Of a stretch of DNA of 64,000 nt, positions 2,844-22,468 are shown in pieces. The position numbers and the translations under genes are program-made. Within the stretch, counting starts at the first letter, position 1; every line of letters begins with the position of its first letter. This DNA is from Couchioplanes caeruleus (GTDB lineage Bacteria > Actinomycetota > Actinomycetes > Mycobacteriales > Micromonosporaceae): the NCBI RefSeq assembly GCF_003751945.1, contig NZ_RJKL01000001.1, positions 4,216,001 to 4,280,000 on the forward strand. Direction: 5' to 3'. The notes beneath the pieces were generated by a model, which did not search any database, was not told the origin of the DNA, and saw only the letters and a list, made by a program, of their open reading frames with translations.

Positions 2844-3404
2844 TTATGCGGATCGTTCGCGGATAAACCCCGCGGGTACGGCGGCGGTGAGCCAGACACC
2901 GTTGTCGCTGCGGTGGAAGACGTGGCCCTCCGTCGTCATCGCAGCGGCTTCGACCTGAAGGATCGCCACGTCCGCCGACCTGCGGCGCCCGACGATGAGC
3001 GCGGTCGGCACGTCCGGCGAGAGATGGACGTGATGGCGGCTCCGCGGCCGCAGCCCGTCCTTCATGATCGACGGCAGGTTCTCCCGGGGCGTGCCGTGGA
3101 ACAGGAGCGCGGGCGGCTCCGCCGGCGGCAGGCCGAGGTCGATGTCCACCCGCCGGGAGTGCCCCTGGTTCGCGCGGATCCGCTCGACCCCGTCGGTGCC
3201 GGCGGCGATCGCGAAGCGGGCCTTGTCGTTGCCGGCGACGACCACATCGAGGTCGGCGCGGGCGATGGACAGGGCGGCCAGCAGGTCGGCGACCGGCACC
3301 CAGCCGTTCGCGTCCAGGGTGAGACCGGCCGCCTCGGGCCGGTGGCGCAGCAGCATGGACAGGCGTTTGCTGAGTCGTACCTGCTCTCGGGTCAGTGTGG
3401 TCAC
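2844..3404 (-). CDS. kptA: RNA 2'-phosphotransferase (Tpt1/KptA family)
   Basis: A 186-residue protein covering the whole Tpt1/KptA fold. The enzyme transfers an internal RNA 2'-phosphate to NAD+, releasing nicotinamide and ADP-ribose 1'',2''-cyclic phosphate. Signatures visible: SKRLSMLLRHRPE with the catalytic Arg-His pair (R20-H21), the winged-helix NGWVPVADLLAAL, IRANQGHSRRVDIDL, and the NAD-binding LFHGTPRENLPSI followed by RHHVHLSPD. The GTG start overlaps the stop of the methyltransferase gene by 4 bp (GTGA), so it is translated as the second gene of that operon. In bacteria the natural substrate is unsettled; RNA repair or RNA de-capping roles are considered. Confidence 0.93.
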   Translation of the reverse strand: MTTLTREQVRLSKRLSMLLRHRPEAAGLTLDANGWVPVADLLAALSIARADLDVVVAGNDKARFAIAAGTDGVERIRANQGHSRRVDIDLGLPPAEPPALLFHGTPRENLPSIMKDGLRPRSRHHVHLSPDVPTALIVGRRRSADVAILQVEAAAMTTEGHVFHRSDNGVWLTAAVPAGFIRERSA

Positions 3405-4177
3405 GTGTGCAACTCCATGACCGCAAGGTAGTAAGGCCGGTCCTGGGTGTCGACGGATTTGAGCCGCCAGGCGGTGCCGCGCAGCAACTCCTCCAGCTCG
3501 TCGACGGAGCAGTTCAGATAGTCGAACCAGTCGGTGGCCAGCAGCCGGTACCGCAGCCGGAGCCGGAGCTGGCCGCCGATGCGACCCCGCTCCCGGTTGC
3601 GCCGGTGGTAGCCGGCGTGCACCGGATCGGTCGTTCCGTACGGGTCGGTGCCCTGCGCGACGATCCGGGCACCCGGCCGGGCCAGCGCGGCGAGCGCGGC
3701 GAGGAAGGCCGGCGCGCGCCCGGGCCCCTCCAGCAGGCCGAGGTTGTTGCCCAGCAGCAGGAAGGTGTCGTAGCGGGCCGGCGCCCGGGCATAGTCGTCG
3801 ACCGTGGCGGTGACGGTGTCCCGCAGCCCTCGGAGACGGGCGACCTCGATGGCACCCGGTGACGTGTCCAGCCCGGTCACGGCCATGCCGCGGCGCTGCA
3901 GTGCGAGCGCCGTACGCCCGGCGCCGCAGCCGACGTCGAGCACCGCACCGCGGCAGAGTCGCAGGGCGCGGACGTCATGCGGCTGCCACTCGCCGGGCTC
4001 GGCGAGGTAGTGGTCGGCGGGCGCACCGTTGATCAGGCCGTCGTCGCGCTCGATGATCTCGATGACCGGCCGCGGCACCCGCCCGCCGGCCAGCGGCCGT
4101 GGCCCGATCCCGGTGCGCACCGCGTACGCGTCCCGGATCATCTCTCCGAACACGTCCCCGAGCGTCGGCTGATCCAT
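3401..4177 (-). CDS. Class I SAM-dependent methyltransferase
   Basis: A 258-residue cytoplasmic methyltransferase. AVLDVGCGAGRTALALQRRG is motif I of the Rossmann fold, followed by VTGLDTSPGAIEVAR (motif II, with the acidic residue for the SAM ribose) and FLLLGNNLGLLEG (motif IV region). The C-terminal strand region is WFDYLNCSVDELEELL. The acceptor is unknown. It is first gene of an operon with kptA, which hints at an RNA or nucleotide substrate but does not prove it. The ATG has no Shine-Dalgarno site; AAGAGT lies 7 nt upstream on its strand, inside an 18-bp gap shared with the divergent oxidoreductase gene. Confidence 0.85.
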   Translation of the reverse strand: MDQPTLGDVFGEMIRDAYAVRTGIGPRPLAGGRVPRPVIEIIERDDGLINGAPADHYLAEPGEWQPHDVRALRLCRGAVLDVGCGAGRTALALQRRGMAVTGLDTSPGAIEVARLRGLRDTVTATVDDYARAPARYDTFLLLGNNLGLLEGPGRAPAFLAALAALARPGARIVAQGTDPYGTTDPVHAGYHRRNRERGRIGGQLRLRLRYRLLATDWFDYLNCSVDELEELLRGTAWRLKSVDTQDRPYYLAVMELHT

Positions 4178-4195
4178 TGTCACTACTCTTGACCC
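4178..4195. promoter_or_regulatory. 18-bp bidirectional leaderless promoter
   Basis: The whole space between two divergent start codons. On the plus strand TACTCT (4184-4189) stands 6 nt before the ATG at 4196. On the minus strand AAGAGT (4190-4185) stands 7 nt before the ATG at 4177. Both match the nAnnnT -10 consensus and occupy the same heptamer, offset by one base, so one melted site could serve both directions. Both messages would start at or next to the A of the start codon. Confidence 0.55.
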
Positions 4196-4567
4196 ATGCC
4201 GACGCTGGAGCAACTCGGTACCGAGAAGTACGTCCTCCTGACCACCTTCCGGCGCGACGGCCGGGCCGTGGCGACGCCGCTCTGGGTGGTCCCCGACGGC
4301 TCGGGGCTGGCCTTCTGGACGCCGAAGGGCACCGGAAAGCTCAAGCGCATCCGCAACTCCGGCCGCGTCACGGTCGCCGCCTGCGACCTGCGCGGCAACC
4401 CGGCGGGCGAGGCGATCGAGGCGACCGCGCGCATCGGCGGCGAGGCCGATCGGGTACGGGTCGGCGAGGCCCTCAAGCGCAAGTACGGCCTGATGGGCTA
4501 CCTGACCCTGCTGGGCAGCCGGCTGCGCCGCGGCCTGCACGGCACGACGACCATCCTGGTGTCCTGA
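4196..4567 (+). CDS. PPOX-class, probably F420-dependent, oxidoreductase
   Basis: A 123-residue split-barrel flavin/deazaflavin protein. The start LEQLGTEKYVLLTTFRRDGR followed by VATPLWVVPDG is typical of actinobacterial PPOX-class F420-dependent enzymes, and the later TGKLKRIRNSGRVTVAACD supplies the basic residues that bind the cofactor phosphate. Members reduce biliverdin, quinones or other small molecules with F420H2; the substrate here is unknown. Length is normal for the family. The start lacks a Shine-Dalgarno site and has TACTCT 6 nt upstream, so the message is probably leaderless. A strong hairpin lies downstream. Confidence 0.85.
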   Translation: MPTLEQLGTEKYVLLTTFRRDGRAVATPLWVVPDGSGLAFWTPKGTGKLKRIRNSGRVTVAACDLRGNPAGEAIEATARIGGEADRVRVGEALKRKYGLMGYLTLLGSRLRRGLHGTTTILVS

Positions 4568-4634
4568 GTTTCTGTGCCGTCGAGCAAAACCCGAGAACCG
4601 AGGGCGGCCCTCGAGTCGAATCCCAGGAACGCAG

Positions 4635-4668
4635 AAGGGGCGATCGCCTTCCCCGGCGCTCGCCCCTT
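4635..4668. terminator. Bidirectional terminator hairpin between convergent genes
   Basis: AAGGGGCGA and TCGCCCCTT form a perfect 9-bp stem around a 16-nt GC-rich loop. It lies between the stop of the oxidoreductase gene (plus) and the stop of bldC (minus), so it can end both. Confidence 0.65.
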
Positions 4669-4694
4669 ATATCGATCCTTCGCCTCGACCGCGT

Positions 4695-4904
4695 TCAGTC
4701 GCCCTGGCGCTGCGTGGGGATCTGCCCCTGCAGCAAGGCACGAACTTCCGACTCCCGGTAGCGACGGTGTCCGCCCAGAGTGCGAATTGCACTGAGCTTC
4801 CCCGCCTTTGCCCACCGGGTGACGGTCTTCGGGTCGACGCGGAACATCGACGCCACCTCGGCCGGGGTTAGTAGCGGCTCAGGATCATGCGTACGCGATG
4901 CCAT
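4695..4904 (-). CDS. bldC: BldC developmental regulator (MerR-like DNA-binding domain)
   Basis: A 69-residue protein that is just a winged-helix excisionase/MerR-type DNA-binding domain: LLTPAEVASMFRVDPKTVTRWAKAGKL, then the wing RTLGGHRRYRESEV. This is the sequence and size of BldC, which in Streptomyces binds DNA as head-to-tail oligomers and delays sporulation. The ATG is preceded by GGAGGAG with good spacing. Its neighbours, an uncharacterised conserved gene and then valine dehydrogenase, are the same as in Streptomyces, which supports orthology. Confidence 0.95.
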   Translation of the reverse strand: MASRTHDPEPLLTPAEVASMFRVDPKTVTRWAKAGKLSAIRTLGGHRRYRESEVRALLQGQIPTQRQGD

Positions 4905-5208
4905 CGGTCACTCCTCCACAGGTACCTAAAGACATCGGCCGGGGTCCCGCCGGCCGGTGCGTCTCTCATGGTCCGGCTAGTCCCCGATGTCCGACATGGG
5001 CCGAACGGCCGAACGTCCCTAGATAGACGGTTGAAGCATGACCGATTTATACGGGTTTTCTACGCCAGAAAGTGTCTTGTTTGGACCGAAAGTCACGCTT
5101 CGCGGGAGGGCGATCACGAAGAGTATTCGCCTAGAGAGCGCTCTCTCGTCTGCCCATCCGGGCGGGTTCGTCCTCGTTTCGGCTGGTCATGGCGCTACCC
5201 CCAGGGCC
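4905..5208. other. Intergenic region upstream of bldC
   Basis: About 300 bases without a supported gene. It has lower GC than its surroundings and several T/A-rich steps (around 5040-5100), as expected for the bldC promoter region. BldC proteins often autoregulate and bind AT-rich direct repeats, but I cannot point to a clear operator. A plus-strand open frame from 5038 runs into the opposite gene and is not convincing. Confidence 0.4.
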
Positions 5209-6048
5209 TCAGTTGCAACGCTCGAGCAATTGCACCGCACGCCAGCGGGCGACGAGCTTCTCGTACGCCTCCGTGGCGGCGTCCGCGTCACCCCTCGAGA
5301 GTGCCGACAGACCGGCGGCCACCAATCCGGGTGAATCGTCGTCGCGCAGATCGGTGTCCTGCAGCAGCCCGGTCAGGCCGCCGTAGTCCAGCTCGACGAT
5401 CGACCGCGGATGGAACTCCTCGAGCCAGCGCGTACCCTCCTCGACGGCCTCGGTGATCGGCGCGTCGCCCAGCGACTTGCGCAGCACCGACACCCCCCGG
5501 TGCGCACGCCGGCGAGCTTTCGAGATCTCGGTGCGGTAGCGCAGCGAGCGCCGGCCGCCGTTGAGGTTGATCTCCCGCTCGTCCAGGTCGACGAAGACGA
5601 ACCAGCGCAGCGGCACACCCCACGTGGCGACCTGCTCGTGCACCCGGGGCACCCCGTGCTCGAGCACCTTGGCCCCACTGCGCCAGTCCTCCACGACGGC
5701 CTTGGCCTGACCGGCCAGCACCGGGGGCACGAACGCGTCCGCGAGGACGCTCGGCACCCCGTCGCGGGCGTTCAGCGCGGCCTCGGCCACGCGCAGCCGC
5801 AGGTTCCAGGGACAGATCAGCAGCGTGTCGCCCCACTCCAGCACGTACGCTTCATCGGGGAGGTCGGGCAGCCGAGTCCAGCCGGCGCCGAGCGCCTCCA
5901 GCACGGCGGTGCGCTGCCGGACCGGACCCTCGACCGGGCCCAACGCTCGCCCCTCCCGCGCGTACCGCCGCCAGAAAAGCTGGCGGTCCCGGTCGAAGGC
6001 GGTCAGTGGTTCATAAACGCGCAGGTACGACGCGAACAGTGACGGCAC
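5209..6048 (-). CDS. Conserved actinobacterial protein of unknown function next to bldC
   Basis: A 279-residue soluble protein without signal peptide or membrane segments. I recognise no catalytic motif. Notable stretches are [13 protein letters not shown] near residue 75, [18 protein letters not shown] in the middle, and a helical Arg-rich segment ([20 protein letters not shown]). The GTG start has AAAGGA seven bases upstream. The gene sits between bldC and the divergent valine dehydrogenase, the same position held by an uncharacterised gene in Streptomyces. The steady co-location with bldC suggests a link to development or amino-acid status, but that is inference only. Confidence 0.75.
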
Positions 6049-6213
6049 GGCGCGATCCTTTCACGAAATCGCCGCCGATTGACTTCTCGCGCGCGGCCAA
6101 ATCGGGTGGCAGCATGCACGGCTAGGCTCGCGGATGTCCGGCAACACCCCGCCGGACCAGGCAGGGCGTCCCACGAGGGCGCACACCCCCAACACACTCA
6201 GGAGAGAGCAGTC

Positions 6214-7296
6214 ATGGGCGTGTTCGTAAGCAGCGACGGCATCGATGCCGTCGGGCACGAGCAGGTCGTCTTCTGTCAGGACCGGCACACCGGCCTGAAG
6301 GCGATCATCGGTATCTACTCCACGGCCCTCGGGCCCGCGCTGGGCGGTACCCGGTTCTACCCGTACGAGAGCGAGGAGGCGGCCGTCACCGACGTGCTCA
6401 ACCTCTCGCGCGGCATGGCGTACAAGAACGCCCTGGCCGGCCTCGACCTCGGCGGCGGCAAGGCGGTGATCTGGGGCGACCCGGCGCTGGACAAGTCGGA
6501 GGCGCTGCTGCGCGCGTACGGCCGCTTCGTCGAGACGCTGAAGGGCCGTTACTACACCGCCTGTGACGTCGGCACGTATGTGCCGGACATGGATGTCATC
6601 GCCCGCGAGACCCGCTACGTGACCGGCCGCAGCGTGGAGCACGGCGGCGCCGGCGACTCGTCCGTCCTGACCGCCTGGGGTGTCTTCCAGGGCATGCGCG
6701 CCGCCGCCGAGCACACCTGGGGCCGCCCGACCCTGGCCGGCCGCCGGGTGGGCATCGCCGGCCTCGGCAAGGTCGGCAAGTACCTGGCGGGTCACCTGAT
6801 CGAGGACGGCGCCACGGTGGTCGCCACCGACGTCAACGCCGCCGCGCTCGAGTGGGCCCGGGCCACGTACCCGCAGATCGATCTCGTCCCGGACACCCAG
6901 GCGCTGATCACCAGCGACATCGACGTGTACGCGCCCTGCGCGCTGGGCGGCGCCCTCAACGACGACACGGTGCCGGTGCTGCGCGCCAAGATCGTGACCG
7001 GCGGTGCGAACAACCAGCTCGCCCATCCGGGCATCGAGAAGCTCCTCGAGGAGCGCGGCATCCTCTACACGCCGGACTACGTGGTCAACGCCGGCGGCGT
7101 GATCCAGGTGGCCGACGAGATCGAGGGCTTCAACTTCGAGCGCGCGAAGCTCCGGGCCACCAAGATCTTCGACACCACCGGACAGATCCTGCGCCTCGCG
7201 GACGACGAGGGTGTGCCGCCGGCCGTGGCCGCGGACCGTCTCGCCGAGCGCCGTATGGCCGAAGTCGGACGGCTCCGTAGCATCTACCTGGGTTGA
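6214..7296 (+). CDS. vdh: Valine (branched-chain amino acid) dehydrogenase
   Basis: A 360-residue Glu/Leu/Phe/Val dehydrogenase, which deaminates branched-chain amino acids to 2-oxo acids with NAD+. The catalytic domain shows [13 protein letters not shown], then [19 protein letters not shown] with the substrate and catalytic lysines. The NAD domain has [22 protein letters not shown] followed by an aspartate ([11 protein letters not shown]). The branched-chain choice over leucine or phenylalanine rests on the location next to bldC, as for Streptomyces vdh. AGGAGAGA precedes the ATG. In Streptomyces the enzyme supplies acyl-CoA starter units for polyketides; the same role is plausible here. Confidence 0.93.
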
Positions 7297-7303
7297 CGGA
7301 TTT

Positions 7304-7355
7304 GTACGCCGTCGCGCGCCGCGTCCACGACAGGCCGCGACGCGCGACGGTGGTA
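7304..7355 (+). terminator. Terminator of valine dehydrogenase
   Basis: A long GC-rich hairpin just after the stop. The arms GCCGTCGCGCG and CGCGCGACGGT, extended inward by CGCG/CGCG and outward by GTAC/GTAC, enclose a loop of about 11 nt. There is no T-run, as is usual for actinobacterial terminators. Confidence 0.6.
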
Positions 7356-7475
7356 CACGTAACCCGAGGTGCCGAAGGCGGCATCGTCCATGTACCGTAA
7401 GACCCACGAGAGATGCCTGACGTCATCGGGGCCCGCCTTCGGGCTGCCCCGAATTCTGTGCGAGGGGGTCGAGCC

Positions 7476-7691
7476 ATGGGGCGCGGCCGTGCTAAGGCCA
7501 AGCAGACAAAGGTGGCCCGGGAGTTGAAGTACCACTCCCCGAACACCGACCTCACCGCCTTGCAGCGCGAACTGGCGGGTGCTGGTAAGTCCGACCATCA
7601 CTTCGTCGACGACGACAATGACTTCGTCGACGACGATGACGATGACGATGCGGACGACGAGCACGATAGCTGGTCGCCTTCGAGGCGCTGA
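7476..7691 (+). CDS. DUF3073 family protein
   Basis: A 71-residue protein starting MGRGRAKAKQTKVARELKY, the signature of DUF3073, found across actinobacteria beside purM or vdh. The N-terminal half is strongly basic with the conserved SPNTDLTALQREL helix. The C-terminal third is a poly-Asp tail (about 16 acidic residues). A basic head with an acidic tail suggests nucleic-acid or ribosome association, but no function is established. The ATG follows GAGGGGG. A hairpin terminator follows the stop. Confidence 0.88.
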   Translation: MGRGRAKAKQTKVARELKYHSPNTDLTALQRELAGAGKSDHHFVDDDNDFVDDDDDDDADDEHDSWSPSRR

Positions 7692-7703
7692 CCCGTATTG
7701 CAC

Positions 7704-7727
7704 AGAGCACGCGGCTTCCCGCGTGCT
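7704..7727 (+). terminator. Terminator after the DUF3073 gene
   Basis: GAGCACGCGG-CTTC-CCGCGTGCTC is a perfect 10-bp stem with a tetraloop, 13 bases after the stop. Confidence 0.65.
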
Positions 7728-7755
7728 CCCGTGTGTCGCGGTCGTTCCGGCAGTT

Positions 7756-7792
7756 CATGATGCCCGCGCGGGCTAACCGCACGGGCATCATG
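7756..7792. repeat. 11-bp inverted repeat (second hairpin after DUF3073)
   Basis: CATGATGCCCG and CGGGCATCATG form a perfect 11-bp stem around a 15-nt loop. It could be a back-up terminator or an operator facing the gene-poor region that follows. Confidence 0.45.
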
Positions 7793-7915
7793 CCGGGCCC
7801 GTAGCCGACTCCCTCCACGCCACCGCCACCCCGGCCCCCCGCACGCCCCCGGCGCCCACCCGGAACCAGCAGCGGCTCCCCGGATGCGGCACCGGCACAC
7901 CCAGGGGGTCAGGGC

Positions 7916-8095
7916 AGCGGCTCGCCCGCGTCCGGCCTGGGCTTACCCGTCCCGCTCGCGGGTCGGGAAGCGGCTCGCCCGCGTCCGGCCTGGGCTTACC
8001 CGTCCCGCTCGCGGGTCGGGAAGCGGCTCGCCCGCGTCCGGCCTGGGCTTACCCGTCCCGCTCGCGGGTCGGGAAGCGGCTCGCCCGCGTCCGGC
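7916..8095. repeat. 53-bp tandem repeat, about 3.4 copies
   Basis: Three identical 53-bp units begin at 7916, 7969 and 8022, followed by a partial fourth (8075-8095). Each unit starts AGCGGCTCGCCCGCGTCCGG and ends with two overlapping self-complementary pairs (ACCCG/CGGGT and TCCCG/CGGGA). The period is not a multiple of three, so the array is unlikely to be coding. Degenerate copies of the CGCCCGCGTCCGGCAGCGG part continue to about 8175. Confidence 0.85.
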
Positions 8096-8385
8096 AGCGG
8101 CCCGCGTCGGCAGGGCGCTTGCGTCGGGGCACCGGTTCGCCCGCGTCCGGCAGCGGCCCGCATCCGGCAGCGGTTCGCACTGCGACCTCACCGTGCCGAG
8201 ACATGTGCGGAATCGGTCTACGCCAATGTCCCGTTCGTCATGCCCGGCGTACGCTCCCACCGGAGTCACCGCCGCTATTGACCGGGCCGCGGCCGCGCCG
8301 TCAGGGCCGACCACCCCACCACGCCGCCGAGCCCCACCAGCCCACCGGCGGCGGCAAGGCCGACCACCACGTCAGCGGTGTCCAA

Positions 8386-8490
8386 GCGTCCCGCCACGTC
8401 GGCGGGATCCGAGCGTCCCGCCACGTCGGCGGGATCCGAGCGTCCCGCCACGTCGGCGGGATCCGAGCGTCCCGCACGCACGTCGGCGAT
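8386..8490. repeat. 27-bp tandem repeat, three perfect copies plus degenerate flanks
   Basis: Perfect units start at 8386, 8413 and 8440 and contain GCGTCCCGCCACGTCGGCGG followed by GATCCGA. Degenerate copies lie on both sides (about 8361-8385 and from 8467). The period is a multiple of three. On the minus strand the frame 8275-8481 reads a nine-residue repeat (RSDPADVAG) leading into a hydrophobic tail, but its start is weak, so I do not call it a gene. Confidence 0.8.
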
Positions 8491-8651
8491 GTCCGAACGG
8501 GCCCGCGACGTCAGCGCGGTCGACCGTCCCGCCTACGTCCGCGTGACCCACCACTTCGCCCGGCGGCGGCGTGACCGGGCCGGGACGGCAGCGCCCGGGC
8601 GGTGTGCCACGGGACCTCACTGTGCCCGTACTTATATAAAGAGCCCAGAAA

Positions 8652-8867
8652 TCACCGCGGCCTATTGTTCCAGTTGTAGAAGGTCGGGATGTTTTCGAAG
8701 TGGTTCCAGGCGCACACCGCCGACCCGTCCGACTCGGCACGCTGCTGCCGAGCCTCCTCGGCCTCCTCGATCAGGGCGGCCAGGCCCATTCGGGTGTCAC
8801 GCACCCGGGCCGTCACGGGATCCGTCTCCGCGCGATCAGACGGCCGTGGGCTCGTGATCTCGGGCAT
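8652..8867 (-). CDS. RiPP precursor peptide, likely multi-cyclophane (triceptide/AmcA-like)
   Basis: A 71-residue peptide. Residues 1-50 are a hydrophilic, helical leader (MGLAALIEEAEEARQQRAES). The C-terminus after VCA reads in strict triplets from residue 54: WNH-FEN-IPT-FYN-WNN, then RPR. Four triplets begin with an aromatic residue and three end in Asn, the Ω-x-N pattern that radical SAM/SPASM maturases turn into three-residue cyclophanes by joining the aromatic ring to the beta-carbon of the third residue. GGAG nine bases upstream supports the ATG at 8867. The gene overlaps the 3' end of the maturase gene by 32 bp. No dedicated peptidase or exporter is nearby. The product and its function are unknown. 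Confidence 0.8.
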   Translation of the reverse strand: MPEITSPRPSDRAETDPVTARVRDTRMGLAALIEEAEEARQQRAESDGSAVCAWNHFENIPTFYNWNNRPR

Positions 8868-9960
8868 GGTCCAGCACTCCCTCAAGTAGGCGAATCTTGC
8901 TGTTCCGGCAGTGGTCTGTCGTCGTCACGTCGAACCGGCCCTGCTCGAAGTAGCGGTTGGCCGCATGCGCTCCGCCGCAGAAGCCGAAGTAGGGACACTG
9001 CACCCGGCAGGCCTCCACCCCGTCGAGGAACTCGCGGATCCACGGCGTCGCGCTCGCACCGGCGAGGATCTCCGGTAGCGGGGTGGTCAGCACGTTGCCG
9101 CTGCTGAAGTCGCCGTAGCGGGGGTCCGAGAAGCCGGCCAGCTCGGGCGAGAGCAGCACCACGCTGCCGTCGTGGGCCACCGTTGGTATCGGGTCGAGGC
9201 GCCGGGGCAGCACGTCGTCGGCGGTGCCGTCCAGGACCGCCGCCGCGTAGCGCAGCGACCATTCGATCTCCCGCAGGTGGATGCGGGGGTCGCGGCGCCA
9301 GGCGCCGACCAGCTCGGCCCAGAAGGCGGTCACGTCCCGCTCGGGGTGCCGGTTGGTGCGGACGTTGACGCCTTCCAACTCCTCGACGTTGATACCGAGC
9401 ACGTCGCAGCCGAGATCGAGGAAGTACTCGTAGAGCTCGGTCGCCAGCCCGGGTGCGGGACGGCCGACCACGCACAGCGCCGAGAACGGAATTCCGTGCC
9501 GCTTCAGCGCGTCCGCCCCGCGGACGATCCGGTCGTAGGCCGGCTTGCCACCCAGAGTGACGCGGTCGCGGTTACGCGTCTCGGGACCGTCGACGCTCAC
9601 GCTGACCCGCACCCGGTGCTCGGCGAAGAACTCGCACCAGGCGTCGTCGATCAGGGTCGCGTTGGTCTGTATGTGGTGCTCGACGCCTGCGGCGAAAGGC
9701 CGCATCAACGCGGCCAGATGCTCCCGGCCCGCGGCGAGCGGTTCACCGCCGTGCCACACCACCGAGAATCTTCCGGTACGGGCCCAGTCGTCCACACCAG
9801 CAGCAACGGCGCCGGCGACCTCGACGGACATCTTCCGGTCCACCCGCCGCAACGGCAGGTAGCAGTAGGAACAGTCAAGGTTGCACAGAGTAGTGGGCTG
9901 CATGACGACGTAGGTGGGAACCCGGGCGATCCCCCGCATGCCACTCCAGGGAAGTCCCAC
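8836..9960 (-). CDS. Radical SAM/SPASM peptide maturase (cyclophane-forming type)
   Basis: A 374-residue enzyme. Near residues 26-33, CNLDCSYC is the CxxxCxxC motif that holds the radical SAM [4Fe-4S] cluster. The TIM-barrel continues with VVWHGGEPLAAG and the SAM-binding VSVSVDGPE. The C-terminal SPASM region (CRVQCPYFGFCGG to TTTDHC) supplies cysteines for auxiliary clusters. It should install C-C crosslinks in the peptide encoded by the overlapping downstream gene. The GTG at 9960 is chosen because GGAGG lies just upstream; the ATG at 9939, also with a GGAG, is an alternative. It resembles the actinobacterial multiple-cyclophane (AmcB-like) maturases; that subfamily name is from memory. 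Confidence 0.88.
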   Translation of the reverse strand: MGLPWSGMRGIARVPTYVVMQPTTLCNLDCSYCYLPLRRVDRKMSVEVAGAVAAGVDDWARTGRFSVVWHGGEPLAAGREHLAALMRPFAAGVEHHIQTNATLIDDAWCEFFAEHRVRVSVSVDGPETRNRDRVTLGGKPAYDRIVRGADALKRHGIPFSALCVVGRPAPGLATELYEYFLDLGCDVLGINVEELEGVNVRTNRHPERDVTAFWAELVGAWRRDPRIHLREIEWSLRYAAAVLDGTADDVLPRRLDPIPTVAHDGSVVLLSPELAGFSDPRYGDFSSGNVLTTPLPEILAGASATPWIREFLDGVEACRVQCPYFGFCGGAHAANRYFEQGRFDVTTTDHCRNSKIRLLEGVLDHARDHEPTAV

Positions 9961-10176
9961 GGCCACCTCCGTCCACGCCGTCGTCGACTCAGGCCAGGCT
10001 AAGTGCCGATGTCCACCCGAGTCTGCCCTGCCCCTCTCATCCACGACCGAAAGTTCCACGGGCACCATTACATCGACACACGCGGATCATTCCATACGAA
10101 GCGCGAGAAACCTCCGATTCGAGGCCCCCCGGCGTCACCCGGCGGTGGTCGTCGCGCCGGATCGGCCAGGCATGCC

Positions 10177-10208
10177 TGCGCCGGTGCCCACCGCGGGACA
10201 CCGGCGCA
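10177..10208 (-). terminator. Terminator of purM
   Basis: TGCGCCGGTG and CACCGGCGCA form a perfect 10-bp stem around a 12-nt loop, 13 bases beyond the purM stop on the minus strand. Confidence 0.6.
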
Positions 10209-10220
10209 TTCTTCGCCTGC

Positions 10221-11372
10221 TCAGCCCCGGGTGTACTGGCCCATCATCTGCACCTGTCCGGTGCCCTCGATGATCTCGCCGACCTGCCAGGCCTCGACGC
10301 CCCGGCCGGTCAGATAGGCCATGGCGCGGTCGGCGTCGTCGGAGGAGACGATCGCGAACATGCCCACGCCCATGTTGAAGGTGGCTTCCATCTCGACGTC
10401 CTCGATGCGGCCCTTCGCCTGGATCAGGTCGAAGATCGACTGCGGACGCCACGACGAGCGGTCCACCACCGCATCGACGTGCTCCGGCAGGATCCGGACC
10501 AGGTTGCCCGGGATGCCGCCGCCCGTGACGTGGGAGAACGCGCGGACGTCCGTCTCCTCGATGAGGCCGAGGCAGTCCTTGGCGTAGATCTTGGTCGGGG
10601 TGAGCAGCTCCTCGCCGAGGGTGCGCTGCTTGCCGAAGTCCTCCACGACCGTGTCGAGGCGCATGCGGCCCGCGCCGAGCAGCACGTGGCGCACCAGCGA
10701 ATAGCCGTTGGAGTGCAGGCCCGACGAGCGCATGGCGATGACCGCGTCGCCGATCTCGACGCGGTGGGCGCCGAGGATCTCGCTCTCCTCGACCACGCCG
10801 ACGCCGGTCGCGGAGACGTCGTACTCGTCCGGGCGCAGGACGCCCGGGTGCTCGGCCGTCTCGCCACCGAGCAGGGCGCAGCCGGCGTAGCGGCAGCCGT
10901 CGGCAATGCCGGCGCCGATCTCCGCGACCTTGTCCGGCACGACCTGACCGCAGGCGATGTAGTCGAGCAGGAAGAGCGGCTCGGCGCCGCAGGCGACCAG
11001 GTCGTCGACCACCATCGCGACGAGGTCGATGCCGATCGTGTCGTGGATGTCGAGCTGCTGGGCGATGACCAGCTTCGTGCCGACGCCGTCGGTCGACGAG
11101 GCGAGGATGGGGCTCTTGTACTTCTGGGTGTCGAGCTTGAAGAGCCCGGCGAAGCCGCCCAGGTCACCCATCACCTCGGGGCGGGTGGTCTTCTTGACCT
11201 TCGACTTGAGCAACTCGACCGCGCGCTCACCGGCGTGGATCGAGACGCCGGCGTCCGCGTACGTCACCGTGCGCTTGCGGACGCTGCGGCTGGAACCCGC
11301 CGACCACGGCTGACGGTCGCCGCCCTCGGCGCCGTTCGATCCGGCACTGCTGCGCTCGGACACGTGCGTCAC
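10221..11372 (-). CDS. purM: Phosphoribosylformylglycinamidine cyclo-ligase (AIR synthetase)
   Basis: A 383-residue enzyme for the fifth step of purine synthesis: FGAM plus ATP to AIR. Signatures are TYADAGVSIHAGERAVELLK at the N-terminus, SSTDGVGTKLVIA, DLVACGAEPLFLLDY, LLGGETAEHPGV and HVTGGGIPGNLVRILPE. An N-terminal extension of about 35 residues precedes the family core, as in other actinobacteria. The GTG follows GGGGAGAACC. It lies 87 bp downstream of purF, probably in the same transcript. Confidence 0.97.
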   Translation of the reverse strand: MTHVSERSSAGSNGAEGGDRQPWSAGSSRSVRKRTVTYADAGVSIHAGERAVELLKSKVKKTTRPEVMGDLGGFAGLFKLDTQKYKSPILASSTDGVGTKLVIAQQLDIHDTIGIDLVAMVVDDLVACGAEPLFLLDYIACGQVVPDKVAEIGAGIADGCRYAGCALLGGETAEHPGVLRPDEYDVSATGVGVVEESEILGAHRVEIGDAVIAMRSSGLHSNGYSLVRHVLLGAGRMRLDTVVEDFGKQRTLGEELLTPTKIYAKDCLGLIEETDVRAFSHVTGGGIPGNLVRILPEHVDAVVDRSSWRPQSIFDLIQAKGRIEDVEMEATFNMGVGMFAIVSSDDADRAMAYLTGRGVEAWQVGEIIEGTGQVQMMGQYTRG

Positions 11373-11459
11373 GGTTCTCCCCTTTGGTGGTGGTGCTCGG
11401 CTGGGCCGCTGGTTTCGACGTCTGACGGTAGTGCGATGGTTCCGTACGGGCCCGGAAGC

Positions 11460-13073
11460 TTACGGGCGGTGCAGGGCGTCGACCCCGCCCGGGCTGCCGA
11501 CCAGCGGTGGCGCCGGTTCTCGCTCGCTCTCGGCGTACTGCTCATCCTCGTACTCCTGCTCGAGTCCGGCCACCGCCGCGGAGGCCGCCTCCGGCGAGGC
11601 ATCGGGCATCGAGGCCCGCTTGCCGACGCTTTCCAGCAGGTGCTTGCCGATCAGGTGGCCGGCCGGGAGCTCGATCGGATACTGCCCATCGAAGCAGGCC
11701 ATGCAGAGTCGTGTCTTCGGCTGCTCGGTCGACTGAACCAGACCGTCCAGCGAAACGTATCCCAGGCTGTCCGCGCCGATCGAGCGGCGGATGCCGTCGA
11801 TCTCCAGGCCGTTGGCGATGAGCTCGGCGCGGGTGGCGAAGTCGATGCCGTAGAAGCAGGGCCACTTGACCGGCGGAGAGGAGATGCGGACGTGAACCTC
11901 GAGCGCGCCGGCCTCACGCAGCATGCGGATCTGAGCACGCTGGGTGTTGCCGCGCACGATCGAGTCGTCGATGACGACGATGCGCTTGCCGCGGACGACC
12001 TCGCGCAACGGGTTCAGCTTCAGCCGGATGCCGAGCTGGCGGATCGTCTGCGAGGGCTGAATGAAGGTGCGGCCCACGTACGCGTTCTTCATGAAGCCCG
12101 CGCTGTACGGAATGCCCGACTCCTCCGCATATCCGATCGCGGCCGGGATGCCGGACTCCGGCACGCCGATGACCAGGTCGGCCTCGACGGGATGCTCCTT
12201 CGCCAGGCGGCGGCCGACCTCCACCCGGGCGGCATAGATGTTGCGGCCGGCGATCGTGGTGTCCGGGCGGGCAAGGTACACGTACTCGAAGAGGCAGCCC
12301 TTGGGCTCGGGCACGGCGAACCGGGTCGACCGCAGGCCGTGCTCGTCGATCGCGAGGATCTCGCCGGGCTCCACCTCGCGCACGAAGCTGGCTCCGACGA
12401 TGTCGAGCGCGGCGGTCTCGCTGGCCACCGCCCAGCCGCGTTCCATGCGGCCGAGCACGAGCGGGCGCACGCCCTGGGGGTCACGCGCCGCGTAGAGGGT
12501 GCTCTCGTCCATGAAGACGAAGCTGAACGCGCCCCGCAGCCGCGGCAGCACCTCCATGGCCGCGGCCTCGACCGACAGGTCGGGGCGGCTGGCCAGCAGC
12601 GTCGTCACCAGGGCGGTGTCCGAGGTCGCGGCGCTGTCGGCCTCGAGCCCACGCTCGGCGACCTCGCGGGCCAGCTCCGCCGTGTTGACGAGGTTGCCGT
12701 TGTGCGCCAGCGCGATCGTCGTGCCCGCCGTGGTGGCACGGATCGTCGGCTGGGCGTTCTCCCAGTTGGAACCGCCGGTGGTGGAGTAACGGGTGTGGCC
12801 GATGGCGAGGTGGCCGCGCAGACTCGCCAGGGTCGGCTCGTCGAAGACCTGGGAGACCAGGCCGAGATCCTTGTAGACCACGACACCCGAGCCGTCACTG
12901 ACGGCGATGCCGGCGGCCTCCTGGCCCCGGTGCTGCAGTGCGAAGAGGCCGAAATAGGTGAGTTTTGCGACCTCTTCCTCGGGGGCCCAGACGCCGAAGA
13001 CGCCGCAGGCATCCTGGGGTCCGCGGTCCTGTGGGTCGAGATCGTCGGTCAACCGGCCGTCGCCTCGGGGCAC
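11460..13073 (-). CDS. purF: Amidophosphoribosyltransferase
   Basis: A 537-residue enzyme for the first committed purine step: PRPP plus glutamine to phosphoribosylamine. The N-terminal nucleophile is the Cys of DACGVFGVWAPEEEV; about 22 preceding residues form a propeptide that must be removed. ALQHRGQEAAGIAV and THTRYSTTGGSNWEN-type glutaminase motifs follow. The PRPP site is IVVIDDSIVRGNTQ. Cysteines near the C-terminus (LCMACFDGQYP) may hold the iron-sulphur cluster of this class. GAGGGAG precedes the GTG. It probably forms one unit with purM. Confidence 0.97.
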   Translation of the reverse strand: MPRGDGRLTDDLDPQDRGPQDACGVFGVWAPEEEVAKLTYFGLFALQHRGQEAAGIAVSDGSGVVVYKDLGLVSQVFDEPTLASLRGHLAIGHTRYSTTGGSNWENAQPTIRATTAGTTIALAHNGNLVNTAELAREVAERGLEADSAATSDTALVTTLLASRPDLSVEAAAMEVLPRLRGAFSFVFMDESTLYAARDPQGVRPLVLGRMERGWAVASETAALDIVGASFVREVEPGEILAIDEHGLRSTRFAVPEPKGCLFEYVYLARPDTTIAGRNIYAARVEVGRRLAKEHPVEADLVIGVPESGIPAAIGYAEESGIPYSAGFMKNAYVGRTFIQPSQTIRQLGIRLKLNPLREVVRGKRIVVIDDSIVRGNTQRAQIRMLREAGALEVHVRISSPPVKWPCFYGIDFATRAELIANGLEIDGIRRSIGADSLGYVSLDGLVQSTEQPKTRLCMACFDGQYPIELPAGHLIGKHLLESVGKRASMPDASPEAASAAVAGLEQEYEDEQYAESEREPAPPLVGSPGGVDALHRP

Positions 13074-13151
13074 GCGCTTGCTCCCTCATGCTGATCTGCT
13101 CGGACTTGCTGGTCTGTTCCGACCGCCCAGTGTACGCGAGGGGACGAGGCT

Positions 13152-13514
13152 TCAGCTCGGGTGCACAGGGAGGTACGGAGCCAGATCGGTGCGTATTCCA
13201 CTCGCCCGTACGCGACCGGAATCCACCGCATCGGCCCAGCCCAGACGGCCCGTTGCGACGAGAAGCCAGGTCAGCGGATCGGTCTCGACCACATTGGGCG
13301 GTGTGCCGCGGGTGTGCCTCGGACCGGGGACACACTGAATAGCACCGAAAGGTGGAATACGGACCTCCACCGATCGGCCCGGGGCGGTCCGTGCCAGCTC
13401 GGACAGGAGCGCTCGCACAGCGTCACGGAGCACCGTACGGTCGGGTTCGACGCCGCCGTCCAGCGCGTCCAACGCCGCGCCGACCGACTCGGATTTATTG
13501 TGCGCAGGAGACAC
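13152..13514 (-). CDS. Sterol carrier family protein (SCP_3-like) near purF
   Basis: A 120-residue cytoplasmic protein with the actinobacterial sterol-carrier-like domain: RSVEVRIPPFGAIQCVPGPRHTRGTPPNVVETDPLTWLLVATGRLGWADAV. This domain accompanies purF in many actinobacteria, and its ligand is unknown. There is no Shine-Dalgarno site, but TATTGT on the minus strand stands 6 nt before the GTG, so the message is probably leaderless. It is divergent from the Gly/Tyr-rich membrane protein gene. Confidence 0.8.
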   Translation of the reverse strand: MSPAHNKSESVGAALDALDGGVEPDRTVLRDAVRALLSELARTAPGRSVEVRIPPFGAIQCVPGPRHTRGTPPNVVETDPLTWLLVATGRLGWADAVDSGRVRASGIRTDLAPYLPVHPS

Positions 13515-13669
13515 GTCGGGACAATACGACCCGGCGAATGGACACAACCCGGCGGCCCTGGGTCGCGCAGACGACCTCCGACAGGGCATAGTGGCCGACG
13601 GTGTGTACTCGTCGCGGAATCCAGGGCACCTTCTCAGCCCGGGGACCGCGCGACCGGAAGGCGGTGGAC

Positions 13670-15976
13670 GTGACAACGCACCTACGAGCCCGGGCTGTCC
13701 AGGCCGGTGCGTTCCTGGCTGTGGTCGGTGGCCTCCTCGTCGCCGCGCCTCCGGCGGCACTCGCGGTGGAACCACAGGTTTCGATCAACAGCCTGTCGTC
13801 CGGTGACATCCCCGCCGGGGGCAAGACGGAACTGACTTTCACCATCGCCAACCGGAACCCGCCCACCCCCGGCGCCGCGGACGGCGTCGCGGTGGAGATC
13901 CAGGCCGACGGCATGACCTGCTCCGGCCAGTGCAACTTCAACGACACGGTGCCGCCCGGAGACGACAAGGTATTCAAGGCCACGCTCACCGCGGGACCTG
14001 TCGAGCCAGGACGGTCGAAGAGCGTCCAGGTGCAGATCACCGCGACGATCGGCAACGATGTCGGCACCGCCGGTCGCGCCGTCACCGTGCGCGGCCCGGA
14101 CAAGCCCCAGACGGTCCGGCAGGTCAGCGGCAAGGTCAAGGACCAGGACGGCAAGGCCGTCGCCGGCGCGATCGTGGCGCTGGGCGACAGCCAGAACCGC
14201 AGGTACAACGCGACGACCAACGGCGACGGCGGCTATTTCTTCACGTCGTCCGACAGCACTCCCATCGCGACGGGCCCGCTGGTCGTCGGCGCCACGAAGG
14301 AGGGCTACGACACCGCGACGGCGAATGCGCAGGGCGGTGCCGGCAAGTCCGTCACCCTTTCGCTGATCATCAAGCTCAAGGCGGCGCCGACCACGGCCAC
14401 GCCGTCGGCCGCGGCGAGCCCCACGGCGACGCCCAGTACCGAGGCGACCGACGAACCGGCCACGGCCGCCGCCGAGGAGACCGCCACCACCTTCCAGGCG
14501 GAGAAGACGGCGGGCGAGGACGAGGGCTCGGGCTCGCTGCTCTTCATCATCCTCGGCGGTCTGCTTGTCGCGGCGGGCATCGGCGCCATCGTCCTCGTGG
14601 TGATGCGCCGAAAGAACAACCCGGATGAGGCGGACGACGCGGGCATCAAGGGCGGTGGCGGTGCCCTGCCGCCGGACCAGGGCCGCTATGGCGGTCTGGA
14701 CGAGACCCGCATGGCATCGGCGGCCGGTGGCCGTGGCGGCGACGCGACGATGGTCGCGCCGCGCTCCGGCGCACCCTCCATGGTGGACGCTCCGACGATG
14801 ATCCACCGCACGCCTCCGGTGGAGCCGGTCGACGAGTTCCCGGACCCGTACGGCGCCCCGCTGCCGCAGAACGGCGCGTTCAACGCCCCCGGCGGCTGGG
14901 GAGCCGCCCCGGCGGCCGGAACGGCGGGCGCGGCTGGAATGGGCGCGGCCGGAATGGGCGCGGCCGGAATGGCGGGCGCGGCCGGAGCGGCAAGCGCGTA
15001 CGGCACGGCGACCCAGTACGGCGGCGCGCCGGTGCCCGCCCAGAGCGGTGGCTACGACGACCGCCAGGCCGACGGCTACGGCGGGTACGACGACCAGGGT
15101 GGCTTCGGCCAGGGCGCCGGCGACCAGCAGCGCTACGACGAGCCCACCGGCATGTACCGCCCCGCGGACGGCTTCGACGAGCGCGGTGGCTACGGCAACC
15201 AGGGCTACGACGACGGTTACGCCGGCGGAGGCGACTACACGGGCCGGGACCAGCAGGGCGGCGGTGCACACCAGGGCGGCGGCTATCAGGGCGGCGCCTA
15301 CGGTCAGCAGGCCGCCGACCAGGGCGGCTACGGCCAGCAGCCCGGCGACCAGGGCGGTTACGGCGCCTGGGACGGCCCCGGCGGCGGCATCGACAGCGGC
15401 AACGCCTACGGTCCCCCGGCCGGCGGCGGCAACGCCTACGGACCGCGGGCCGGCGGCGGCACCTACGGCGGCGCTCAGGGCGGCGGCACCTACGGCGGCG
15501 CTCAGGGCGGCGGCACCTACGGCGGCGCCCAGGGCGGCGGCACCTACGGCGGTGGCCAAGGCGGCGGCACCTACGGCGGTGGCCAAGGCGGGAACGGTGG
15601 CGACGGCACGTATGGCGGCGGCGCCCAGGGCGGTGCTTACGGCGGCGGCTACGACGACGGCGACCAGGCTGGCAATGCTTATGGTGGCGCACCGCAGGGT
15701 GGCAGCGCCTACACCGGCGCACCGCAGGGTGGCAACGCCTATGGTGGCCCACCGCAGGGTGGCAACGCCTACGGTGGCGCACCGCAGGGTGGCACCTATG
15801 GCGGCGGCGGCACCTACGGCGGCGGCCAGCAAGGCGGCTACGGCGACCAGGGCGGCTACGACCAGCGCGGCGGCTCCTACGGCGGCGACCAGGGGCGGGG
15901 CGGTGCACCGCGGGAGCAGCACCCGGAGGGATCACACCCCGGGCAGCGCCGGTCGGGCGAATGGATGGACGGCTGA
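13670..15976 (+). CDS. Single-span membrane protein with a long Gly/Tyr-rich repeat tail
   Basis: A 768-residue protein. The first 32 residues are a signal peptide (AFLAVVGGLLVAAPPAALA). Then comes an extracellular part: a beta-sandwich region, a carboxypeptidase-regulatory-like domain (VSGKVKDQDGKAVAGAIVAL) and a Thr/Ala-rich linker. A membrane helix follows at about residues 287-313 (LLFIILGGLLVAAGIGAIVLVV), ending in MRRK. Some 450 residues of low-complexity tail follow, with Gly-Ala-Met repeats, then QGGGTYGGA repeats, then NAYGGAPQGG repeats. By the positive-inside rule the tail is cytoplasmic. GGAAGG precedes the GTG at 13670. Function unknown; a surface sensor or scaffold is possible. 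Confidence 0.8.
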   Translation: MTTHLRARAVQAGAFLAVVGGLLVAAPPAALAVEPQVSINSLSSGDIPAGGKTELTFTIANRNPPTPGAADGVAVEIQADGMTCSGQCNFNDTVPPGDDKVFKATLTAGPVEPGRSKSVQVQITATIGNDVGTAGRAVTVRGPDKPQTVRQVSGKVKDQDGKAVAGAIVALGDSQNRRYNATTNGDGGYFFTSSDSTPIATGPLVVGATKEGYDTATANAQGGAGKSVTLSLIIKLKAAPTTATPSAAASPTATPSTEATDEPATAAAEETATTFQAEKTAGEDEGSGSLLFIILGGLLVAAGIGAIVLVVMRRKNNPDEADDAGIKGGGGALPPDQGRYGGLDETRMASAAGGRGGDATMVAPRSGAPSMVDAPTMIHRTPPVEPVDEFPDPYGAPLPQNGAFNAPGGWGAAPAAGTAGAAGMGAAGMGAAGMAGAAGAASAYGTATQYGGAPVPAQSGGYDDRQADGYGGYDDQGGFGQGAGDQQRYDEPTGMYRPADGFDERGGYGNQGYDDGYAGGGDYTGRDQQGGGAHQGGGYQGGAYGQQAADQGGYGQQPGDQGGYGAWDGPGGGIDSGNAYGPPAGGGNAYGPRAGGGTYGGAQGGGTYGGAQGGGTYGGAQGGGTYGGGQGGGTYGGGQGGNGGDGTYGGGAQGGAYGGGYDDGDQAGNAYGGAPQGGSAYTGAPQGGNAYGGPPQGGNAYGGAPQGGTYGGGGTYGGGQQGGYGDQGGYDQRGGSYGGDQGRGGAPREQHPEGSHPGQRRSGEWMDG
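15466..15800 (+). repeat. Coding Gly-Gly-Tyr tandem repeats
   Basis: Within the membrane protein gene, a unit encoding GGGTYGGAQ is repeated five times (from about 15466), with nearly identical DNA. A 30-bp unit encoding GNAYGGAPQG then repeats four times (from about 15670). Such arrays change length easily by slippage. Confidence 0.8.
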
Positions 15977-20245: not shown

Positions 20246-20929
20246 GTGCGCATCCGCACCGCTGTCGTCTCTCTGGCCACCGCCCTGACCGGCATCCTCG
20301 CCGTCCCCACCGCCGCCGGTGCCGCCCCGGACGGCCCACAGCACATCATCGGCGGCAGCGCGGTCTCCTCGGCGCCGTGGGCCGCCGCGGTCTTCAGTGA
20401 CGGCGAGTTCTTCTGCTCCGGCACGATCATCTCGCCGAACTACGTGCTCACCGCGGCCCACTGCATCGAGGGCTCGATGTCCGTGCGCATCGGCAGCGTG
20501 AACCGGACCTCGGGCGGCGTGACCCGCACGGTCACCTCCGTCAAGACCCGCTACGACCTCGCGCTGATGCGGCTGAGCAGCTCGGTCTCGACGAGCTACG
20601 TGTCCCTGTCCAGCTCGTATCCGCCGGTGGGGTCGACGAACTCGCTCTTCGGCTGGGGCCGGACCTGCTACAGCGGCTGCGACGCGTCGACCATCCTGAA
20701 GACCGCGGACGTCGAGGTCACCACGACCCGGCAGACCGATGCGTACGGCGGGCGCGCGATCGGCAGCTCCGGCATCGACGGCGCCGCGTGGCGCGGCGAC
20801 TCGGGCGGCCCGCAGTTCTACAACGGCGCCCAGGTGGGCGTGGCCTCGACCGCAGACGGTGTGAGCCGGCAGTACTACGGCAGCGTTGCCTACAACAGGT
20901 CGTGGATCCGCTCGGTCGCCGGCGTCTGA
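20246..20929 (+). CDS. Secreted trypsin-like serine protease (S1A)
   Basis: A 227-residue chymotrypsin-fold protease. A signal peptide of about 26 residues is followed by a short propeptide; the mature chain should start at IIGG (residue 34), as in zymogens. The triad is H72 (LTAAHC), D104 (YDLALMRL) and S186 (RGDSGGP). Cys57-Cys73 and Cys141-Cys145 can pair; the cysteine usually found just before the GDSGGP motif is missing. GGAAGGAG precedes the GTG. Target unknown; nutrition or development-linked proteolysis is likely. Confidence 0.93.
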   Translation: MRIRTAVVSLATALTGILAVPTAAGAAPDGPQHIIGGSAVSSAPWAAAVFSDGEFFCSGTIISPNYVLTAAHCIEGSMSVRIGSVNRTSGGVTRTVTSVKTRYDLALMRLSSSVSTSYVSLSSSYPPVGSTNSLFGWGRTCYSGCDASTILKTADVEVTTTRQTDAYGGRAIGSSGIDGAAWRGDSGGPQFYNGAQVGVASTADGVSRQYYGSVAYNRSWIRSVAGV

Positions 20930-21076: not shown

Positions 21077-22468
21077 GGCCTCGGGGTGTGCCGCCACGAT
21101 CTGCGCGATCCGGTCGGCTACGGCACGGACCTGCGCGGGCGCGGCGCCCACGAAGGCCGCGCGGTCCGCGACCAGGGCGTCGATCTCGGCGCGGGACAGG
21201 CCCAGCCGGCCGTCCTCGGCGAGGCGGTCGAAGAGGTCGTTCTCGGCGGCGCCCTTCTCGCGCATGGCCAGTGCCATGCCGACCGCGTGCTCCTTGATGA
21301 CCTCGTGTGCGACCTCCCGGCCCACGCCCTTGCGCACCGCCGCGACCAGGATCTTCGTGGTCGCCAGGAAGGGGAGGAACCGGTCCAGCTCGCGGGCGAC
21401 CACCGCCGGGTATGCCCCGAACTCGTCGAGGACGGTCAGGAAAGTCTGGAACAGGCCGTCGGTGGCGAAGAAGGCGTCCGGCAGGGCGACCCGGCGCACG
21501 ACCGAGCAGGAAACGTCGCCCTCGTTCCACTGGTCGCCGGCCAGCTCGCCGATCATCGAGAGGTAGCCGCGGACGATGACGGCGAGCCCGTTGACCCGCT
21601 CCGAGGACCGGGTGTTCATCTTGTGCGGCATCGCCGAGGAACCCACCTGGCCGGGCTTAAAGCCCTCGGTGACCAGCTCCTGGCCGACCATGAGCCGGAT
21701 CGTGGTGGCCAGCGACGACGGCGCGGCCACGACCTGTGCCAGCGCGGACACCACGTCGAAGTCCAGCGAGCGCGGGTAGACCTGGCCGACGCTGGTCAGC
21801 ACCCGCTCGAAGCCCAGGTGCTGGGCGACCTTGCGCTCCAGCTCCGCCAGCTTCTCCGCGTCGCCGTCGAGCAGGTCGAGCTGGTCGGCGGCCGTGCCCA
21901 CGGGACCCTTGATGCCACGCAGCGGGTAGCGCGCGATGAGATCGTCGAGGCGCTCGTACGCGATCAGCAGCTCCTCCGCCGCGCTGGCGAACCGCTTGCC
22001 CAGCGTGGTGGCCTGCGCGGCGACGTTGTGCGAACGACCCGTCATGACCAGGTCGCTGTGCTCGAGCGCACGCTCGGTGAGCCGCGCGAGGGCGGTGACG
22101 ACGCGACCGCGGACGAGCTCCAGCGACGCGCGGACCTGCAACTGCTCGACGTTCTCGGTGAGGTCGCGCGAGGTCATTCCCTTGTGGACATGCTCGTGCC
22201 CGGCGAGTGCGCTGAACTCCTCGATGCGAGCCTTGACGTCGTGGCGGGTGACCCGCTCACGCTCGGCGATGCTGCGCAGGTCGACGTCGTCCACCACCCG
22301 CTCGTAGGCCTCGACGACCCCGTCGGGCACCGCGACGCCGAGGTCGCGCTGGGCGCGCAGGACGGCGAGCCACAACCGGCGCTCCATCCGGATCTTCTCC
22401 TCGGGCGACCAGAGGCCGGCGAGATCGGCGGAGGCATAGCGGCTGGCGAGGACATTCGGGATGCTCAC
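21047..22468 (-). CDS. purB: Adenylosuccinate lyase
   Basis: A 473-residue member of the fumarase/aspartase superfamily. It removes fumarate from SAICAR and from adenylosuccinate, serving two steps of purine synthesis. Signatures: SRYASADLAGLWSPEEKI at the N-terminus, MTSRDLTENVEQLQ, the catalytic-His region MTGRSHNVAAQATTLGKR, and the signature loop VGSSAMPHKMNTRSSER. The GTG overlaps the stop of the MFS gene by 4 bp, so purB is third in a regulator-transporter-purB operon rather than with other pur genes. Its terminal codons belong to a tandem repeat. Confidence 0.96.
   Translation of the reverse strand: MSIPNVLASRYASADLAGLWSPEEKIRMERRLWLAVLRAQRDLGVAVPDGVVEAYERVVDDVDLRSIAERERVTRHDVKARIEEFSALAGHEHVHKGMTSRDLTENVEQLQVRASLELVRGRVVTALARLTERALEHSDLVMTGRSHNVAAQATTLGKRFASAAEELLIAYERLDDLIARYPLRGIKGPVGTAADQLDLLDGDAEKLAELERKVAQHLGFERVLTSVGQVYPRSLDFDVVSALAQVVAAPSSLATTIRLMVGQELVTEGFKPGQVGSSAMPHKMNTRSSERVNGLAVIVRGYLSMIGELAGDQWNEGDVSCSVVRRVALPDAFFATDGLFQTFLTVLDEFGAYPAVVARELDRFLPFLATTKILVAAVRKGVGREVAHEVIKEHAVGMALAMREKGAAENDLFDRLAEDGRLGLSRAEIDALVADRAAFVGAAPAQVRAVADRIAQIVAAHPEAASYRPAPIL

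Follow-up and report, generated by a model that had tools for sequence, protein, structure and literature searches.

The closest described counterparts of the locus examined here belong to the AMC family, in which the abbreviation stands for "actinobacterial multiple cyclophane." Phan and Morinaka 2022 (ACS Chem Biol) is said to be the primary paper. The family is represented by the models NF041718, NF041722, and PF28164. Among the papers listed in searches of the open-access literature, none dealt with AmcA or AmcB themselves, their synteny, or the invariance of the core; Phan and Morinaka 2022 may report these. For triceptides, hydrogen abstraction followed by radical addition is described in passages of PMC12257519, and passages of PMC11002830 state that OscB links C7 of Trp to the C-beta of Asn or Asp and that XncB or OscB link C4 of Phe to the C-beta of Asn. 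The passages of PMC11626248 that catalog the clusters found in Actinoplanes sp. SE50/110 make no mention of triceptides by that term.

Family membership and layout of the gene pair

We analyzed a window of 64,000 nucleotides from Couchioplanes caeruleus, by which we mean the whole stretch of DNA under study. An earlier note on this DNA had named the actinobacterial multi-cyclophane group as the likely family of a maturase gene and an overlapping precursor gene and had proposed a search of both proteins against RiPP families. This search agreed with the assignment, as both proteins exceeded curated cutoffs: the maturase scored 521 bits against NCBIfam NF041718 (AmcB; cutoff of 425, profile positions 1 to 361 of 362), and the precursor scored 108 bits against NCBIfam NF041722 (AmcA_3a; cutoff of 65). 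In accordance with AmcA_3a membership, the precursor gene also adjoins and overlaps amcB and encodes several aromatic-x-x triplets. The next best model for the maturase, GrrM/OscB (TIGR04261), reached 230.9 bits and stayed below its cutoff of 310, so that the maturase was not classified as GrrM/OscB; likewise, the peptide was not assigned to AmcA_3b (NF041723), with 46.6 bits against a 65-bit cutoff. The features of the locus are the following.

7413..7691, plus strand: DUF3073 gene (PF11273), the convergent downstream neighbor.
8652..8867, minus strand: amcA, encoding a 71-amino-acid precursor, with a 32-bp overlap with amcB (NF041722, AmcA_3a; homologs carry PF28164).
8655..8720, minus strand: 22-residue core end, AVCAWNHFENIPTFYNWNNRPR, with the predicted ring triplets WNH, FEN, FYN, and WNN (from conservation across the family).
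8721..8867, minus strand: amcA leader, residues 1 to 49, variable, with a conserved GL..L..EA..AR..RAE stretch (from an 81-locus comparison).
8836..9960, minus strand: amcB, radical SAM cyclophane-forming peptide maturase by family, 374 amino acids from the likely GTG (NF041718, PF04055, AlphaFold model).
9966..9970, minus strand: GGAGG, ribosome-binding-site-like, ahead of the amcB GTG (direct sequence reading).
9996..10001, minus strand: TAGCCT, a -10-like element in the purM-amcB gap (26 gaps, selected out of 77, share the consensus TAgcCTg when aligned).
10221..11372, minus strand: purM, the upstream neighbor of the pair (AIRS and AIRS_C domains).

Homologs of the precursor numbered 1,080 at an E value of ≤0.001; the best 120 of these carry Pfam domain PF28164 and, where NCBI gives a name, are called "multiple cyclophane-containing RiPP AmcA." The genome itself harbors one AmcB over the cutoff and one AmcA_3a, and among the matches listed, where records very close to the window may be missing, the nearest named AmcB homolog is that of Couchioplanes caeruleus subsp. 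azureus, with 94% identity over 410 residues. On sequence grounds, the pair falls within the multiple-cyclophane (AMC) triceptides, a named family and a system that is already known, and is unexceptional there: both cutoffs are passed, gene order and overlap are those of its relatives, and no feature was found that sets the copy in the window apart from other AmcA_3a members.

Read on the minus strand, positions 8867 to 8652 encode a peptide of 71 residues with the C terminus SAVCAWNHFENIPTFYNWNNRPR; the terminal sequence of the small protein AmcA is CAWNHFENIPTFYNWNNRPR. The maturase stop codon lies at 8838 to 8836 and the ATG of amcA at 8867, which gives the 32-bp overlap that had been noticed before. 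An overlap of 32 bp was also read for 76 of 111 loci; for roughly 12 loci the start was misassigned, so that not every overlap length is usable. The enzyme-first order had been taken for the reverse of the common arrangement; it turned out to be the rule, with both genes on the same strand and the precursor start near the end of the enzyme gene in 111 of 111 loci. Translation of amcB likely starts at the GTG at 9960 to 9958, behind the GGAGG at 9966 to 9970. A longer frame reaching to 10068 is disfavored because it crosses the conserved promoter-like element TAGCCT, which may act as the -10-like element of a promoter. Scans of positions 7650 to 10300 with a strict sigma-70 consensus and for terminators returned no match.

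The gap between amcA and the DUF3073 gene spans roughly 960 bp in the window, which exceeds the median for the 81 loci (209 bp, measured from one match end to the other). Two tandem repeats lie in this gap, at 7906 to 8095 (53 bp, 3.6 copies, 98% matches) and at 8367 to 8543 (27 bp, 6.4 copies, 82%). Elsewhere in the window, positions 2844 to 3404 hold a gene of the Tpt1/KptA RNA 2'-phosphotransferase family (PF01885, 160.8 bits).

Maturase cysteines, core register, and predicted rings

The maturase matches PF04055 in a Pfam search, and its CxxxCxxC motif, already recognized in the earlier note, corresponds to C62, C66, and C69 (410-residue numbering), each conserved in 93 of the 94 sequences aligned, the remaining one having a gap. 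The SPASM cysteines also claimed there were recovered in part: C354, C358, C364, and C387 near the C terminus are invariant (94 of 94), but in an alignment to anSMEcpe the N-terminal SPASM Cys positions face non-Cys residues in AmcB, and none of the SPASM Pfam models matched at an E value of ≤1. A full SPASM domain provides ligands for two auxiliary clusters, of which AmcB shows only the four C-terminal cysteines. In the simplest reading, AmcB would hold one auxiliary cluster, not two. Further conserved cysteines are C145 (94 of 94) and C221 (93 of 94). The 94 sequences comprise 81 loci and 13 sister loci, excluding the fragments L182, L191, and L192 and the type 1 loci L174 and L175. An AlphaFold model of 373 residues (from one past the GTG) has a pLDDT of 89.1 and a pTM of 0.87, and its closest folds in the PDB are the anaerobic sulfatase maturase anSMEcpe (4k37, TM score of 0.71) and ChlB (9gm3, TM score of 0.75), the latter solved with the leader of its own precursor.

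The strict three-residue register WNH-FEN-IPT-FYN-WNN that had been described is present in the 71-residue peptide; Trp or Phe opens four of its five triplets, and Asn closes three of these four. The residues RPR follow, so that the triplets do not form the extreme C terminus. The register is not due to chance: when the last 22 residues were shuffled 20,000 times, about 29 of the resulting sequences reached it, and 20,000 shuffles of the full-length peptide gave none. In addition, 108 of 111 loci share this end, and the remaining three differ from it by a single change.

The proposed alignment of homologous cores gave the exact end in close relatives and a less strict picture beyond them. In other genera, the same chromosomal slot encodes the cores WRPFEDAFPTFYQFTNRPR, GPRPFEDAFPTFYQFSNRPQR, WRAFSDAFPTFWEFSNRPR, and PRWTDVFTTQFTEFSNRPR. 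Among the best 120 of 1,645 sister-set homologs, 111 are of the FxDxFPT kind and nine of the kind found in the window. Within the 111 sisters FED is constant, FYQ (72) or FYE (39) takes the place of FYN, and FTN (93) or FSN (18) that of WNN; at the position of WNH, 90 have W-R-P/A/T/S/N, four have W-Q-P/T, and 17 lack Trp. The sister cores carry one extra residue before PT, between ring positions two and three, and a strict register is therefore not required; nor is Asn required at each third position, given FYQ and FYE. These sisters correspond to AmcA_3b (NF041723; Hamadaea and Rugosimonospora by NCBI name), which shares with the window peptide the purM slot, an AmcB partner, and three aromatic ring positions, but differs in its core, (W)(R/Q)x-FED-xFPT-FY(Q/E)-F(T/S)N, which has the inserted residue, lacks Cys, and does not keep WNH. 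AmcA_3b was over the cutoff in none of 394 genomes of the class.

Up to four rings had been suggested for the core. Since ring positions two to four recur in the 111 sisters and WNH does not, three rings appear well supported and the fourth doubtful: judged from these alignments, the most likely ring sites are F57-N59, F63-N65, and W66-N68, with W54-H56 as a possible fourth. The comparison of sister cores also predicts which rings matter.

In the proposed mechanism, amcB and amcA would constitute a minimal two-gene triceptide-type RiPP cluster. AmcB would bind the leader of AmcA, whose conserved GL..L..EA..AR..RAE stretch is probably the part recognized by the enzyme, and SAM would be cleaved at the CxxxCxxC cluster to yield a 5'-deoxyadenosyl radical. 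Within an aromatic-x-x triplet, this radical would remove a hydrogen from the C-beta of residue three, and the C-beta radical would bond to the aryl side chain of residue one to form a strained three-residue cyclophane with a mass change of -2 Da, steps modeled on the C-beta abstraction and aryl addition described for triceptides in portions of PMC11002830 and PMC12257519. Leader removal and release might involve unlinked proteases and transporters, or the product might remain intracellular.

We consider it highly probable that amcB and amcA are AMC members and that AmcB makes three-residue cyclophanes on AmcA, the ring chemistry and the number of rings being the parts that we infer. FEN, FYN, and WNN fit the motifs F-x-N and W-x-N given for OscB and XncB in the relevant passages of PMC11002830, and the NCBI name of the enzyme family itself reads cyclophane-forming. 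Both points speak against AmcB making a product other than three-residue cyclophanes, or fewer than four rings, on AmcA, which we regard as improbable even though the N-terminal SPASM ligands are absent, the WNH position is lost in the sisters, and none of the motifs in the same passages has His in third place. GrrM/OscB, the next closest model, has the F-x-N and W-x-N chemistry that is predicted for the pair but, besides its score below 310 bits, is set apart by an identity of 30 to 34% in five plasmid copies among the matches listed.

Conservation, descent, and putative role of the product

A pattern search covering all codon spellings (and admitting Ser at the two Arg) matched the exact 22-residue end in 277 of the 354 family genomes, namely, in all 67 of the own genus, in 159 of 160 of genus g50, and in 51 others. 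AmcA_3a was over the cutoff in 297 of the 354 genomes (303 at an E value of ≤0.001), of which 20 lack the exact core, 11 of them belonging to genus g35. The nine others without it are G115, G133, four genomes of g37, G250, G366, and G380.

In a comparison of 81 loci, which favors close relatives because it consists of the window and the best 80 of 125 contigs found by similarity (so that the count of 277 of 354 is the less biased one), the core was identical in 78 and had FFN for FYN in three Catellatospora loci. These 81-locus counts use L001 and L035 to L114; L005 to L034, partly from the same strains, enter only the 111-locus count. The 81 cores are spelled by 70 distinct DNA sequences, pairwise codon differences (4.5 per pair) are 98.4% synonymous, and the mean identity to the window residue is 0.998 in the core and 0.63 in the leader. 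Among the best 120 database proteins, including that of the window, 116 have the same end and four have one substitution each. The many spellings, the synonymous differences, and the variable leader indicate that selection acts on the peptide product and not on the DNA. Conservation at the DNA or RNA level was ruled out by the 70 distinct core sequences, together with an Rfam search of window positions 4000 to 14000 that yielded no match.

The chromosomal position is similarly constant. Of the 81 loci, 78 have purM directly upstream on the same strand, and all 81 have the DUF3073 gene downstream and convergent; in three Catellatospora loci, purM lies elsewhere and is reversed. Beyond DUF3073 follow a Leu/Glu dehydrogenase gene (79 of 81) and a BldC-like gene (77 of 81), the remainder not being found within the fetched locus. 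Six of 25 genomes without AmcB over the cutoff show DUF3073 after purM and no AmcB (at most 1.5 kb fetched), and in two of these six, G416 and G517, the purM-DUF3073 gap measures only about 0.2 kb. This looks like an empty arrangement that would predate the gain of the pair. Fifty-one family genomes have no AmcA_3a match; 11 of these have AmcB over the cutoff, several with sister precursors, and 40 do not, 22 of which belong to genus g42. The pair is therefore not essential to the whole family.

AmcB over the cutoff was present in 60 of 60 genomes of the own genus (this genome counted), as against 0 of 40 further genomes from the order, and in two of 396 genomes of the phylum. Both of the latter are Micromonosporaceae, the host family, and a spread through the phylum is thus unsupported. 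Trees of AmcB and PurM from 93 loci share 42 of 90 splits, compared with a mean of 0.13 and a maximum of 1 for 100 sets of permuted labels, and their distances correlate at 0.87. Conflicts with PurM splits concern 18 of 64 AmcB splits at a support of 0.8 and one of 27 at 0.95, where a single PurM split conflicts in turn. These comparisons suggest that the pair has been largely vertically inherited, with some transfer or tree error remaining. The 146 matches to AmcB in plasmid records include none with at least 60% identity, and all 18 phage matches are below 60%; together with the broad agreement of the AmcB and PurM trees, this led us to reject a mobile or laterally spread cluster.

The frozen core, the fixed locus, and the presence throughout large genera of the family favor a core physiological role. 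Release and role are what we infer from these patterns, and the chances appear roughly even that the AmcA_3a product acts on a core physiological target, as a signal or modulator, rather than as an antibiotic in an arms race. With about equal weight on either side, the near-invariant multi-ring peptide may be a core-genome molecule, inherited vertically at one site, with a conserved cell target in development, envelope, or signaling. If true, it would be the first example of a triceptide that serves in housekeeping physiology. The freezing of the core could instead reflect substrate limits of the enzyme, not a target.

Peptides used in competition usually diversify, and the exact core in 277 of 354 family genomes counts against a secreted antibacterial or signaling triceptide acting between strains and processed and exported by unlinked general machinery. 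In line with the earlier note, which had seen no linked protease or exporter, no protease, exporter, or immunity gene was seen close to amcBA among 18 frames scanned around the locus (a subset of the frames of the window), where the nearest candidates are a trypsin-like frame at 20246 to 20929 and an MFS frame at 22465 to 23742; this too weighs against such a product. Related ring peptides with an understood action exist in dynobactin and darobactin (in the cited part of PMC12257519), darobactin being active against Gram-negative bacteria (in that of PMC9055067), and we rate a secreted product as unlikely. The authors of PMC12257519 write, in the same part, that the bioactivities of triceptides have not yet been elucidated.

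Binding of a metal through Cys52, His56, and the ring Asn residues, as an intracellular metal buffer or metallophore, seems a very remote prospect. The core Cys and His are invariant across the 81 loci, and bufferins, which are other RiPPs, chelate copper according to passages of PMC12452194, but same-slot sister cores such as VAGPRPFEDAFPTFYQFSN have neither Cys nor His, so that metal binding could not be the shared function. As regards the physiological role favored above, the retention of one unaltered peptide sequence in 277 of 354 genomes, at a site fixed in nearly all of the 81 loci, offers a clean genetic test by way of two small genes.

Other precursor types and related genes

Precursors of the AmcA_1 type (NF041721), such as that of L174 (genome G311), likewise have an AmcB partner over the cutoff and repeated F/W-D-N triplets. 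The L174 locus differs in its enzyme, which is 42% identical, in its core, FDNRPTWDNRGSFDSRPGWDNW, and in that purM was not found in the fetched 4 kb. L175 (genome G392) has an AmcA_1-like core, WDNRPSWDNW, below the AmcA_1 cutoff, with an AmcB partner and no purM in the fetched locus. At L183, L184, and L187, three loci of genus g56, the precursor that accompanies AmcB in the purM slot is of a third kind, PRWTDVFTTQFTEFSNRPR; that of L184, the one of the three that was scanned, is under the cutoffs of the 3a and 3b models.

In L190 (positions 1444 to 2733; genome G176), whose NCBI copy has 413 amino acids and is named for a metagenome-assembled genome (MAG) of Dactylosporangium sp., the AmcB frame runs without a stop into a precursor-like tail that ends in TYYNWNNRSR. 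Maturase and precursor may be naturally fused here, with the core reduced, or the MAG may contain a frame error; in the search for other AmcB-precursor fusions, L190 was the only protein found. The genome of the window also carries a second radical SAM gene (L233:1441-2568; C1:6315112-6316155) encoding 375 amino acids, which scores 115.5 bits against GrrM (cutoff of 310) and is followed on the same strand by what appears by eye to be a GntR-like regulator gene.
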